Assembly (NCBI RefSeq): GCF_029893635.1 | Contig: NZ_JARXYR010000002.1 | Location: 2,393,001 to 2,457,000, forward strand | DNA: 64,000 nucleotides | From: Variovorax sp. TBS-050B | GTDB lineage: Bacteria > Pseudomonadota > Gammaproteobacteria > Burkholderiales > Burkholderiaceae_C | Direction: 5' to 3' | In this document: positions 45,850 through 49,940 of the stretch, piece after piece | Layout of the letters: each line of letters starts with the position of its first letter | How positions within the stretch are numbered: the stretch's first letter is position 1 | Position numbers and translations under genes: made by a program | Notes under the pieces: generated by a model | The model's input: the letters and a program-made list of their open reading frames with translations, nothing else | What the model was told of the DNA's origin: nothing | The model's database searches: none

Positions 45850-47053
45850 TCAGAAAGCGTGGCGGATGCCGAAGTCGTAGCCGGTCGAGTTCTTGGGCGT
45901 GAAGACCTTGTTGCCGATGAAGGACGGGCCGCCCACGGTCAGGGCTGCACCGTTCTTGTTGCTCACGCGGGCGACCGTGGCGTACAGGGCGGTGCGCTTC
46001 GACAGGTTGTGCACGTAGCCGAGCGCCAGCTTGTTGGCCTTCGGGTCCGGCTTGTCGTAGAACGGGTTGAGGTCGTCCGTCTTGTACTTGACGCCCGAAT
46101 ACGAAGCGCGAATCAGGCCAGGACCCACAGGGACCGTCACGCCGACCAGCCAGCCGTTCAGCTTGGTCGAGGTCAGGGAGAGCCGGTCGGCAAGGTAGTA
46201 CCCGTCGAAGTCGGTCTTCTGCTTGGCCTGCGACAGCTCGCCGAGGAGCTTCACAGGGCCGAAGTCGTACGACGCGCCGATGTTGAAGATGTCGACCTTG
46301 TCGGTCGTGCCCGCGAAGTAGTTGTCACCGGTGATGTTGCTGCCGTAGGCCAGCGCGATGTCCAGAGGACCGTTGGCGTAGCCGAAGCGGCCGCCGACGT
46401 AACGGCCCTTGCGTGCGATGTCAGCCTTGTCCGGTGTCGCGAAGCCCGGGTCGTACTTGGTCTGCTCGTGGAAGCCGTACTGCACTTGGCCATAGAAGCC
46501 GCCGAGGTTCGGCGGCAGGAAGTAGCCGACCGTGTTGCTGGCACGCGTGGGGCTGCCGAACAGGCCGCCAGCGGTGTGGATCAGGTTGGTACCGACGCCG
46601 TTGGTACCGAACGGATCGAACACGGAGTTGTTCCAGAACGTCGGCGTGTAGTCGCGGCCGAGGCGGAATTCACCGAAACCACCGGACAGGCTCACCGTCG
46701 CACGGCGAGAGAACGTCGCAGCACCTTCGGAACCGTCGTCGTTCTTGATGGGTGCTTCGAGCCAGAAGCTGGCAGCCAGGCCACCACCGAGGTCTTCCGT
46801 ACCACGGAAGCCCAGACGGCTGGTGTTGTAACCCGAGTGGGCCAGCTCACGGCGGCTGAGCTTGACGCTGCCTTGGTTCCGGTAGAACGGGTTGTAGGCA
46901 ACCGGGAGGCCGTTCGCGTTGTACGTCACGCCATTGTTCAGATCACGCGAGCTGTTCGAATAGCCGCTGATCGACGCGTCGACCACGCCGAACAGCGTGA
47001 CGGACGACTGAGCCGAGGCAACACCGGCAACAGCCAGGGCAGCCAGAGCAACT
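45850..47053 (-). pseudogene. Outer-membrane porin, 5' end and start codon missing
   Basis: A gram-negative trimeric porin (OmpC/general porin type) similar throughout to the intact porin at 48696-49940 (FGVVDASISGYSNSSRDLNN, then SRLGFRGTEDLGGGLAASFWLEAP, ending GYDFGIRHAF). The C-terminal Phe needed for outer-membrane assembly is present. Homology to the other copy's signal peptide goes back only to VALAALAVAGVASAQ; beyond 47053 the expected ATGAAAAAATCTCT is replaced by unrelated sequence. The frame has no ATG, GTG or TTG from the upstream in-frame TAG until the GTG at 46986, which lies inside the first beta strand. It is either inactivated by a rearrangement or misassembled. Codon use (CGT, GGT) is that of a highly expressed gene. 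Confidence 0.8.
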
Positions 47054-47116
47054 GCCCTTTCGCACCGCGAAACTAGAGTGGAAGCTGGGTCGCCCGCGCC
47101 TTGCCGAAGCGCAAAG

Positions 47117-47206
47117 AAAAAAGCCCCGAGCCTTGCGGCTCGGGGCTAAATCCACCAATTGGAAGGGTGGAGGAGACAACCGGTGCGCACAACGGGGTGC
47201 GCGATG
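47117..47206 (-). ncRNA. Candidate small RNA with CUCCUCC motif
   Basis: A self-contained unit on the minus strand. A promoter (47213-47240) is followed by about 90 nt that fold into three stems. Stem 1 is GCGCAC/GTGCGC (47185-47202). Stem 2 is TCCACC/GGTGGA (47151-47171). The last is an 11-bp perfect terminator stem, AGCCCCGAGCC/GGCTCGGGGCT (47122-47147), with six U. Between stems 1 and 2 the RNA reads GGUUGUCUCCUCC, complementary to Shine-Dalgarno sequences. No reading frame fits. The layout resembles known anti-SD riboregulators, but no homologue is claimed. Confidence 0.6.
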
Positions 47207-47212
47207 AAATAA

Positions 47213-47240
47213 AGTATATCGGCTGTTTGCTGCGTTGCAA
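47213..47240 (-). promoter_or_regulatory. Sigma-70-type promoter for the candidate sRNA
   Basis: On the minus strand, TTGCAA (47235-47240), a 16-nt spacer and TATACT (47213-47218) match the -35 and -10 consensus at 4/6 and 5/6 or better. Transcription would start near 47206. It is the clearest sigma-70 promoter seen in this GC-rich window. Confidence 0.65.
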
Positions 47241-47321
47241 CAAGCAGTGACGCTTTTCCCACACACAAATGAATGTCAGTGACCGTTTTTGTTGCTGAAC
47301 ATTCCGGATGGACCGACGAAG

Positions 47322-47771
47322 ATGGAATGCACAGTGAGTTGGACCGGCGACGCCGGCACCCGTTCGGCCATGGGTTTCGTGGCAGAGACCGGCAGCGGCC
47401 ACGTCCTGACGATGGATGGCGCGCCAGACGCCGCCAAACCCGAGAACGGCGGACAGAACTTCGCACCCCGGCCGATGGAAACCGTGCTCGCGGGCACCGG
47501 CGGCTGCACCGCCTATGACGTCGTGCTGATCCTGAAGCGCGGCCGCCACCAGGTGGAGCGCTGCAGCGTCAAGCTCACGAGCGAGCGCGCGCCGAAGGAT
47601 CCCAAGGTCTTCACCAAGATCCACATGCACTTCACCGTGGCAGGCAAGGGCATACCGGCCGCCGCCGTGGAGCGCGCGATCGCCCTGAGCCACGAGACCT
47701 ATTGCTCGGCGAGCATCATGCTCGCGAAGACCGCCGAGATCACGACGAGCTTCGATCTGATCGAGACCTGA
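47322..47771 (+). CDS. OsmC family peroxidase-like protein
   Basis: A 149-residue cytoplasmic protein of the OsmC/Ohr superfamily. Family features are METVLAGTGGCTAYDVVLIL, which carries one conserved Cys, and SHETYCSASIMLAKTAEIT, which carries the second. These two cysteines form the thiol peroxidase site that reduces organic hydroperoxides. The ATG at 47322 (MECTVSWTGDAGTRSAMGF) is preferred; a TTG at 47289 would add eleven residues without clear support. It is transcribed toward coq7 and converges with it, leaving 12 nt between stops. Subgroup OsmC/YhfA is more likely than Ohr. Physiological substrate unknown. Confidence 0.85.
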   Translation: MECTVSWTGDAGTRSAMGFVAETGSGHVLTMDGAPDAAKPENGGQNFAPRPMETVLAGTGGCTAYDVVLILKRGRHQVERCSVKLTSERAPKDPKVFTKIHMHFTVAGKGIPAAAVERAIALSHETYCSASIMLAKTAEITTSFDLIET

Positions 47772-47783
47772 AGCCGCGGCGTC

Positions 47784-48413
47784 TCAGATGCGGTGCGCCA
47801 CCGTGGTCATGACCCGCGAGGCCAGCCGCATCAGGGCCTTGGCCGGTGCCGGCAGCTCTGCGGCGCCCGCATCGACGGCCTGGGAAGCGTGCCGCGCCTC
47901 GTCGATCTTCATCTGCTCGACGACGGCCCGCGAGGCGGTGTCCGCAGGCGGCAGGCGGCCAAGATGGCTGTCGAGATGCGCCTCGACCTGCCGTTCGGTC
48001 TCCGCGACGAACCCCAGGCTCAGCGGGTCTCCGAGGCGCCCCGCGACCAATCCGAGGCCGAAAGCGCCGGCATACCACAGCGGATTCAGCAGCGAGGGCC
48101 GGGCACCCAACTCGTCCAGCCGCTGGCGCGTCCAGGCCAGATGATCGGTCTCCTCGTGCGAAGCCTCGAGCAGCTGGGCGCGCAGAACCGGATCGCGGGC
48201 CACTGCGGCCTGGGCGGTGTAAAGCGCCTGGGCGCAGACCTCGCCGACGTGGTTGACCCGCATCAGCGCCCCGGCCTCTCGGCGCTCCGACTCGGTCATT
48301 TCGGCCGGCGCCTGGCGGGGTGGCGGCATGGACCGGGTGGCGCGATGGCGGGCAAAAAGCGTACGCAACGCTGCATCGGCCGTGTTGAGAACGGGATCGA
48401 GCGAAAAGGTCAT
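47784..48413 (-). CDS. coq7: 3-demethoxyubiquinol 3-hydroxylase Coq7
   Basis: A 209-residue di-iron monooxygenase that carries out the penultimate hydroxylation in ubiquinone synthesis in many beta- and alpha-proteobacteria, in place of UbiF. The iron-ligand motifs are [32 protein letters not shown] and [15 protein letters not shown]. Hydrophobic stretches ([14 protein letters not shown]) explain membrane association. The ATG at 48413 ([20 protein letters not shown]) fits the family; an ATG at 48431 would add six residues. It is divergent from the intact porin, sharing a 282-nt control region. Confidence 0.92.
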
Positions 48414-48499
48414 GTCGTTATTGGAACCCATGCCGAAGACCACGGGAAAATCGCCGGTCTGATTTCGCATTGTGGTTTTTCGGAAGGCTTCACGCCTTT

Positions 48500-48515
48500 G
48501 TTGCAGTCCTGCAAC
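48500..48515. promoter_or_regulatory. Perfect inverted repeat in the coq7/porin control region
   Basis: GTTGCAG-TC-CTGCAAC is a 16-bp perfect inverted repeat in the 282-nt region between the divergent coq7 (48413) and porin (48696) starts. The related palindrome GTTGCAAC occurs in the sRNA promoter at 47234-47241. It could be a regulator site; the regulator is unknown. Confidence 0.35.
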
Positions 48516-48695
48516 GAAACGCGGGGGGCTCCGGAGATTTCGGGCGAATTGTTTTGCCCTGCCGCAGCGCCTCTGGTGCAATAGCATCAACTTCCCAAAA
48601 GGAGGTTGGCCCGGGGTCCGGTGGGAGCACAAAAGTGCCAGTCACGGTGAGCCCTTCGCACCGGAGCCCTATGTTTAACCTTGGAGAAACTTGCA

Positions 48696-49940
48696 ATGAA
48701 AAAATCTCTAGTTGCTCTGGCTGCCCTGGCTGTCGCCGGTGTTGCCTCGGCTCAGTCGTCCGTCACGCTGTTCGGCGTGGTCGACGCGTCGATCAGCGGC
48801 TACTCGAACACCTCGCGTGACCTGAACGGTGCCACGTTCCTGAACCCGTTCTACCTGAACCAAGGCAGCGTGAAGACCAGCCGTCGTGAACTGGCCAACT
48901 CGGGTTACAACTCCAGCCGTCTGGGCTTCCGTGGTACGGAAGACCTCGGTGGCGGCCTGGCTGCCAGCTTCTGGCTCGAAGCACCGATCTCCAACGACGA
49001 CGGCCAGCAAGGTGTTGCCACCTTCGCACGTCGCTCGACCGTGAGCCTGTCGGGTGGTTTCGGTGAAATCCGCCTCGGCCGTGACTACACGCCGACGTTC
49101 TGGAACGACACCGTGTTCGATCCGTTCGGCACCAACGGCGTCGGTACCAACCTGATTTCGACGGCCAACGGCACCTTCGGCGCCTTCGGCACCCCCGCTG
49201 CTTCGACCGCTCCGTTCACCAACGTCGGCTCGAACAACTACACCCGCGCCAGCAACACCATCGGCTACTTCCTGCCCCCGAACCTCGGCGGCTTCTACGG
49301 CCAGCTGATGTACGGCTTCAGCGAGAAGACCAAGTACGATCCGGGCACCGCCACCCCGACCACGCTGAACGCTTCGCGCCAAGGCCGTTACGTTGGTGGC
49401 CGTTTCGGCTACGCCAACGGTCCTCTGGACGTGGCGATTGCCTACGGCAGCAGCACGGTTGGCGACAACTACTACGTTGGCACGACCACCAAGGTCAACA
49501 CCCTGAACCTCGGCGCTTCGTATGACTTCGGTCCCGTGAAGCTCTTCGGTGAAGTGTCGCGCGCCAAGAACAAGCTCGACTACGAAGTCGAGCCCTTCCT
49601 CGGCGGCCGTCCCGACATCGACCTGACCGGCTACCTGCTCGGCGTGACCGTGCCGGTCGGCGCTGGCCTGATCCGTGCTTCGTACTCGCGCGTCAAGTAC
49701 GACTTCAACGCGCCCGCAGTGCTGTTCGCTCCTGACGTCGCAGATCCGAAGGCCAGCAAGCTGGCGATCGGCTACGTGCACAACCTGTCGAAGCGCACGG
49801 CTCTGTACGCCACGATCGCTCGCATCAGCAACAAGAACGGTGCTGCTCTGACCGTTGGCGGCCCCGCCTTCATCAGCAACGCCGTCTTCACGCCGAAGAA
49901 CTCGACCGGCTACGATTTCGGTATCCGTCACGCTTTCTAA
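48696..49940 (+). CDS. Outer-membrane porin (OmpC-like)
   Basis: A 414-residue trimeric general porin. The signal peptide is MKKSLVALAALAVAGVASAQ, and the mature protein begins SSVTLFGVVDASISGYSN, the standard first strand of betaproteobacterial porins. The loop-3 region has FDPFGTNGVGTNLI, and the protein ends GYDFGIRHAF with the C-terminal Phe used by the Bam machinery. A GGAGA site precedes the ATG at 48696. Codon usage favours CGT, GGT and GTT more than neighbouring genes, as expected for a very abundant protein. It provides diffusion of small hydrophilic solutes through the outer membrane. It has its own terminator and is monocistronic. Confidence 0.93.
   Translation: MKKSLVALAALAVAGVASAQSSVTLFGVVDASISGYSNTSRDLNGATFLNPFYLNQGSVKTSRRELANSGYNSSRLGFRGTEDLGGGLAASFWLEAPISNDDGQQGVATFARRSTVSLSGGFGEIRLGRDYTPTFWNDTVFDPFGTNGVGTNLISTANGTFGAFGTPAASTAPFTNVGSNNYTRASNTIGYFLPPNLGGFYGQLMYGFSEKTKYDPGTATPTTLNASRQGRYVGGRFGYANGPLDVAIAYGSSTVGDNYYVGTTTKVNTLNLGASYDFGPVKLFGEVSRAKNKLDYEVEPFLGGRPDIDLTGYLLGVTVPVGAGLIRASYSRVKYDFNAPAVLFAPDVADPKASKLAIGYVHNLSKRTALYATIARISNKNGAALTVGGPAFISNAVFTPKNSTGYDFGIRHAF

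Follow-up and report, generated by a model that had tools for sequence, protein, structure and literature searches.

The window, the whole 64,000-nucleotide stretch of Variovorax sp. TBS-050B DNA that was analysed, carries a small RNA (sRNA) gene on its minus strand between an OsmC-family gene and a porin gene lacking a start codon. A divergent tyrosine recombinase gene lies beyond this porin, and coq7 and a second, intact porin follow on the other side (Table 1). Promoter, two hairpins and terminator were all found where a preliminary description of the sequence had placed them.

Table 1. Features of the sRNA locus (positions within the window)
Feature	Position	Strand	Basis or remark
Divergent tyrosine recombinase, 376 aa	44629..45759	+	phrog_1 integrase, E 2.3e-16
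Start-codon-less porin (silent copy A), open for 400 codons	45850..47052	-	Porin_4
Putative recombination site, silent form AGGGCAG-TTGCTCTGG-CTGCCCT	47036..47058	-	inverted arms
sRNA gene, ~90 nt, RF02278 family	47117..47206	-	Rfam match 47178-47116, fold, covariation
Intrinsic terminator, 11-bp stem and T-run	47117..47147	-	3/11 pairs with changes on both sides
Hairpin 2, UCCACC/GGUGGA	47151..47171	-	unchanged in 52/52 sequences
Anti-Shine-Dalgarno stretch GUUGUCUCCUCC	47169..47180	-	UUGUCUCCUCC unchanged in 52/52 sequences
5′ hairpin (hairpin 1), GCGCAC/GTGCGC	47185..47202	-	covarying
Sigma-70-type promoter TTGCAA-16-TATACT	47213..47240 (-35 47240-47235; -10 47218-47213)	-	region conserved in genus alignment
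Palindrome TTGTTGCAACGCAGCAA spanning the -35 box, predicted PhaR operator	47227..47243	-	consensus matches
OsmC-family gene, divergent neighbour, start probably 47322	47289..47771	+	PF02566; in all 34 genus regions
coq7	47784..48632	-	NF033656; also neighbours Bordetella S17
Intact porin B and its leader, inverted with respect to copy A	48696..49940	+	Porin_4
Second 5′ site copy, in porin B	48711-48741		genome pattern search

A conserved member of the RF02278 family

Judging from the position of the -10 box, transcription probably starts near 47206. The predicted RNA has a minimum free energy of -45 kcal/mol (z -6.4), a value as low being reached by none of 200 shuffles. The CUCCUCC stretch noticed in the preliminary description is present, except that part of it is paired within hairpin 2, leaving mainly GUUGUCUCC single-stranded.

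The RNA had been taken for an undescribed one. The Rfam scan corrects this: it matches RF02278 (Betaproteobacteria toxic sRNA) over the full model (1-64) with 64.4 bits, against a gathering cut-off of 50, and an E-value of 6.3e-12. The layout is that of the family, with two hairpins, the second being the terminator, and UCUCCUCC at the 5′ end. In the same scan, NmsRb (RF02877; 37.6 versus 52 bits), anti-hemB (23.8 versus 49.5 bits) and suhB/MmgR (RF00519; 18 versus 41 bits) stayed below their cut-offs. The sRNA adds a new member to a known family, which has been studied in Burkholderia, Bordetella and Herbaspirillum. The ‘toxic’ of the family name reportedly originates from Kimelman 2012. The preliminary description was right to propose an anti-Shine-Dalgarno sRNA gene that stands by itself, having a promoter and a terminator of its own; its stems are conserved and covary.

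Matches to the family were found in 48 of 61 neighbourhood genomes and in 128 of 200 order-wide genomes, the own genome included in both sets; they exceeded the cut-off in 75 of the 200, and none was found in 14 control genomes. Three genomes of one family (G043, G457 and G576, family f8) carry 8 or 9 matches each, above the other listed genomes.

Conservation and covariation in relatives, proposed earlier as a check, were both found. Among 52 distinct sRNA sequences, standard pairs make up 96.4% of 1196 pair cells, compared with 27.7-41.2% in slid-structure controls. Fifty-three cells have changed on both sides, which none of 500 shuffles reached; this count was probably lowered rather than raised by the misplacement of shorter 5′ hairpins in the MAFFT alignment. 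Weaker measures of covariation gave 7 pairs with both-side changes (7 being reached by 23/500 shuffles) and 17 further pair types (reached by 165/500). The 5′ hairpin retains at least five pairs in all 52 sequences, with both-side changes at four of its six pairs. Hairpin 2, the seed hairpin, is invariant and therefore uninformative on pairing, so that the support comes from the 5′ hairpin and the terminator.

Relatives of this RNA have been studied experimentally. In Burkholderia cenocepacia, expression of four RF02278 RNAs is described, growth slows when ncS27 is overexpressed, and ribosome-binding site (RBS) regions are covered by 55-80% of the interactions predicted for the double-hairpin RNAs (PMC5688073, PMC4603805; review PMC10987360); an unnamed upstream motif is reported there as common to three of the four members. 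Four members are also reported from Herbaspirillum (PMC7011215). The Variovorax sRNA shares with NcS27/bdhR1 of B. cenocepacia the model match, the double hairpin with UCUCCUCC, the length of ~90 nt and an ncS27-like 5′ extension. It differs by its extra covarying 5′ hairpin and by having one CUCCUCC and a CUUCC, whereas the family consensus has a second CUCCUCC. The Neisseria NmsRs (NmsRA/NmsRB; RF02877), as described, similarly repress metabolic mRNAs, namely those of the TCA cycle, via anti-Shine-Dalgarno motifs (PMC5362039), although our sRNA falls below the cut-off of their model, as given above.

In Bordetella pertussis, S17 is described as an Hfq-dependent RNA that RNase E shortens to 67 nt and whose gene lies between a glycosyltransferase gene and coq7; it represses BP2158 by pairing, for which compensatory changes were tested, while two of four further candidates showed no effect (PMC11722255). 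By their described features, S17/S17S and the Variovorax sRNA resemble each other in their CU-rich 5′ end, terminator, coq7 neighbourhood and a -35 box starting with TTGCA, whereas the long form of S17 measures 190 nt and depends on BvgA-P. Since S17 adjoins coq7, the sRNA is probably its positional ortholog.

A predicted PhaR operator at the sRNA promoter

The sRNA promoter is the sole sigma-70-like site found within the surrounding 3.2 kb (mean of shuffles, 0.2). The palindrome over its -35 box, TTGTTGCAACGCAGCAA, fits exactly YTKNTGCRNYGCANMAR, the palindrome deduced for Ralstonia eutropha PhaR (PMC12849132). It also holds TGCAACGCAGCA, an exact fit to TGCRNYGCASMA of Bradyrhizobium PhaR, one of whose footprinted sites is reported to lie likewise over a -35 box (PMC6201568). 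Within the genus, the core TGCRNYGCA occurs at the sRNA promoter in all 34 regions; the PhaR 12-mer is exact in 11 of them and has one mismatch in 23, and the 17-mer is exact in 30.

The comparison was extended to 32 order-wide sRNA loci, one match per genome from a subset of the 128 genomes with matches. The exact 12-mer lies at most 200 nt upstream in 23 of these 32 loci versus 1 of 345 same-locus control windows; with up to one mismatch the numbers are 26/32 and 28/345. For the 17-mer at up to 0, 1 and 2 mismatches, they are 3, 14 and 24 of 32 loci versus 0, 1 and 13 of 345 controls. Fisher values for this enrichment are nominal, since the compared loci are related. In 9 of the 32 loci the exact 12-mer is absent, and a convincing site is absent in 8 or 9, so control by PhaR cannot be universal.

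The genome itself encodes a phaR gene (domains PF07879 and PF05233). The palindrome TTGYTGCNNNGCARCAA occurs exactly at only two places in it, the sRNA promoter and the promoter (C2:4763236) of a phasin gene (PF09361). With one mismatch it occurs at eleven further places, among them a second site at the same phasin promoter and a copy lying 95 bp away from the match to the PhaR domains. Of these 13 places in total, compared with 4 for the reversed-pattern control, several are probably chance matches. The strict 17-mer has no exact match at the phasin site and two other hits in the genome. In the 3′ UTR of this phasin gene, starting ~25 nt past the stop codon, is a second, weaker RF02278-like element (44.3 bits; C2:4763949-4764009, L065 5950-6010). 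Of 22 listed additional copies in the genus, 20 were looked at: 12 follow, at a distance of 1-55 nt, a gene recognised by eye as phasin-like because of its MALTxDQ start, and 8 of these 12 have the palindrome ~700 nt upstream; the other 8 are not behind such a gene.

A precedent for an sRNA under such control is described in Sinorhizobium, where PhaR/AniA represses mmgR and binds its promoter (PMC8401924, PMC12542648). MmgR is Hfq-dependent and, unlike the Variovorax sRNA, belongs to another family and class. A tie between PhaR and RF02278 was not found among the literature matches listed, papers on the family included.

The reading we prefer, with a probability of roughly 0.8, is that the sRNA is the Variovorax-type RF02278 ortholog, an RBS-blocking RNA repressed by PhaR and released when PHB accumulates, damping carbon uptake and catabolism. 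Building on the family membership, structure, conservation, operator match and enrichment observed, we infer PhaR binding, the direction of control and the targets as follows. The sRNA would be transcribed from its own sigma-70 promoter and probably trimmed to a short form starting near UGUCUCCUCC, as shown for S17. Its CU-rich stretch would pair, as shown or predicted for relatives, with the RBSs of numerous mRNAs, chiefly those for nutrient uptake and catabolism. PhaR, titrated by PHB granules, would repress the promoter through the predicted operator covering the -35 box. As PHB accumulates, PhaR would leave and allow synthesis of the sRNA, which would damp any further uptake and catabolism of carbon. 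The RF02278-like element of the phasin 3′ UTR, which stands behind the other exact palindrome, would be made simultaneously.

The palindrome might instead serve another regulator, the sRNA being a family member bearing no relation to PHB. PhaR motifs are short and degenerate, the loci devoid of the exact 12-mer would be accounted for, and S17 is under BvgA-P. Against this stand the exact fit of two published PhaR consensuses at one promoter, the other exact palindrome of the genome falling at a phasin promoter, the near copy close to phaR, and the 12 of 20 extra RF02278 copies behind phasin-like genes. We regard this alternative as unlikely. The predicted PhaR operator at the sRNA promoter, a proposal drawn from motif matches, is the main new and directly testable point of this analysis.

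Gene order, the start-less porin and the adjacent recombinase gene

In the 34 genus regions, as far as contigs reach, the gene order is intact porin, coq7, osmC and sRNA. The sRNA is followed by the start-less porin, the integrase and ilvA in 13, directly by ilvA in 20 and by a contig end in one. More widely, an OsmC gene is near the sRNA in 24 of the 32 order-wide loci. With porin A or ilvA following on the same strand, the RNA could be seen as a leader or attenuator of that gene; this reading was rejected as very improbable because the downstream gene changes between regions while the RNA does not, and moreover the fold shows no apparent antiterminator and the relatives are free short transcripts. 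Equally improbable is the earlier proposal of an undescribed sRNA acting on the neighbouring intact porin: both are in one locus and UCUCC is complementary to GGAGA of the porin leader, but RF02278 was already described and the porin was rejected as target on its leader duplex with the seed, which at -9.3 kcal/mol ranks 35th of 37 window leaders (a rough test, with a crude gene set from the window and duplex energy without an accessibility term).

The start-less porin had been described as broken. The open frame indeed has no start codon, whereas ‘broken’ fits poorly with a frame that stays open in all 13 complete genus copies (382-431 codons; one, L057, with N) and is linked to a recombinase gene; a plain pseudogene is disfavoured by the open frame. 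From the upstream stop to the conserved codons, no ATG, GTG or TTG occurs in the window copy and 6 of the 13 others (7/14). The remaining 7 have start candidates that are not conserved, some a few codons upstream (L046). Translation of porin A from a start of its own was rejected, no start being conserved among the 14 copies.

The first 60 bases of copies A and B differ by one base in the window, and a 31-base pattern from this porin 5′ stretch has exactly two occurrences genome-wide when up to 3 mismatches are allowed. Across 38 genus genomes (regions without copy A, contig ends, L057 with its N, and the filter-missed L134 and L152 being left aside), these 60 bases show 1.74 differences within genomes versus 2.90 between genomes, which none of 2000 permutations reached, and are identical in 23. 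This likeness points to recurrent exchange between A and B, relatedness of the genomes being able to add to the signal. The 8-nt arms of the silent site are complementary at 7/8 positions in 33 of the 38 genomes, at 6/8 in 4 and at 3/8 in one, whereas the leader site has no inverted arms (2/8 complementary in 38/38). Alignment A1 omits L171 and L184 (frame broken at the given ends) and L192 (frameshift). The flipped orientation was found in none of the 38 genomes, so that frequent inversion in the genus is rejected and switching there would be rare, biased or absent. The assembly of L057 (G031) has an N at each of the two porin 5′ sites, as could result from conflicting reads or an unresolved repeat.

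The integrase lies beside copy A in 13/13 regions and is found in 0/20 regions without copy A. It was found in 45 of 101 genus genomes and 15 of 299 family genomes, and 24 of 26 named loci found with it are from Variovorax. The protein has no Pfam or NCBIfam match at 0.001, Phage_integrase (0.0088) remaining below cut-off; a weak structural model (mean pLDDT 60.7) matches the Tn1549 integrase, Cre and lambda Int in Foldseek. R213, K243, R321 and Y355 are invariant in 18 sequences. HxxR and a later H/W belong to the canonical tyrosine recombinase motif; here Y replaces the H of HxxR and N the later H/W, departures which leave activity not assured. In Variovorax beijingensis 502 (L164/L189) the module is decayed: copy A was not found beside the sRNA and the integrase is truncated, with stops.

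Beyond the genus, the comparison took in twelve regions surrounding relatives of the integrase. A porin or porin-like gene lies near the integrase in ten of them, by search or site motif, and none was found in the other two (L097, L101). In four other genera of the family (g96, g130, g148 and g112), porins that lack the usual MKK start clearly adjoin the integrase; two more genera (g54 and g105) are less clear. Only in L092, L095 (two copies) and L098 is the stretch ahead of the signal peptide free of ATG, GTG and TTG; elsewhere there are candidates in frame, for instance 13 codons upstream in L091 (ATG) and 7 codons upstream in L093 (TTG). Intact and silent porins are arranged tail to tail in two species of a single genus (L093, L094), and here the body that bears the start in L093 is closest to the silent body of L094 (54% versus 36-39% for the other five pairs). 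This one pair suggests the swap of roles that inversion predicts; the silent body of L093, without the usual porin C-terminus, may be decayed. L095 and L096 (G248) have start-less porins in two porin-integrase pairs in direct orientation, with further integrases nearby. At L190, in a metagenome-assembled genome named Gammaproteobacteria, an integrase relative lies near several surface-protein-like open reading frames with similar, by eye apparently start-poor, signal peptides.

With a site-specific recombinase gene adjacent and inverted, shared sites at the silent and intact porins, we lean slightly towards a recombinase-driven porin switch in which inverted sites in the signal-peptide codons would let the start-less and intact porin bodies swap the start codon, the sRNA lying inside the invertible segment. 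Such a switch perhaps exists; its support comes from anatomy, not from observed flipping. The arrangement of one expressed 5′ end, a silent gene without it, an adjacent recombinase and inverted sites is also that of two surface-protein inversion switches, Vpma of Mycoplasma agalactiae, where the recombinase is Xer1, and pilin/Piv of Moraxella. The present case differs from both in that the genes are porins, the hosts Burkholderiales, the recombinase family divergent and flipping unobserved. No such porin-recombinase system was found among the literature matches listed, which covered few subscription-journal papers.

Significance of the porin module and the PhaR operator

If it flips, the porin module would be a case of recombinase-linked variation of outer-membrane pores in environmental bacteria, with a bearing on solute uptake and on the entry of phages.

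As for the sRNA, the regulator of sRNA accumulation in Burkholderia is stated as unknown in the published work consulted, and the authors of the S17 study postulate a repressor that they leave unnamed. The predicted PhaR operator would be a testable answer to both. It would parallel the control of MmgR by PhaR/AniA in Sinorhizobium, and would mean that, in a large part of the order, carbon storage is tied to the translational control of uptake and catabolism.
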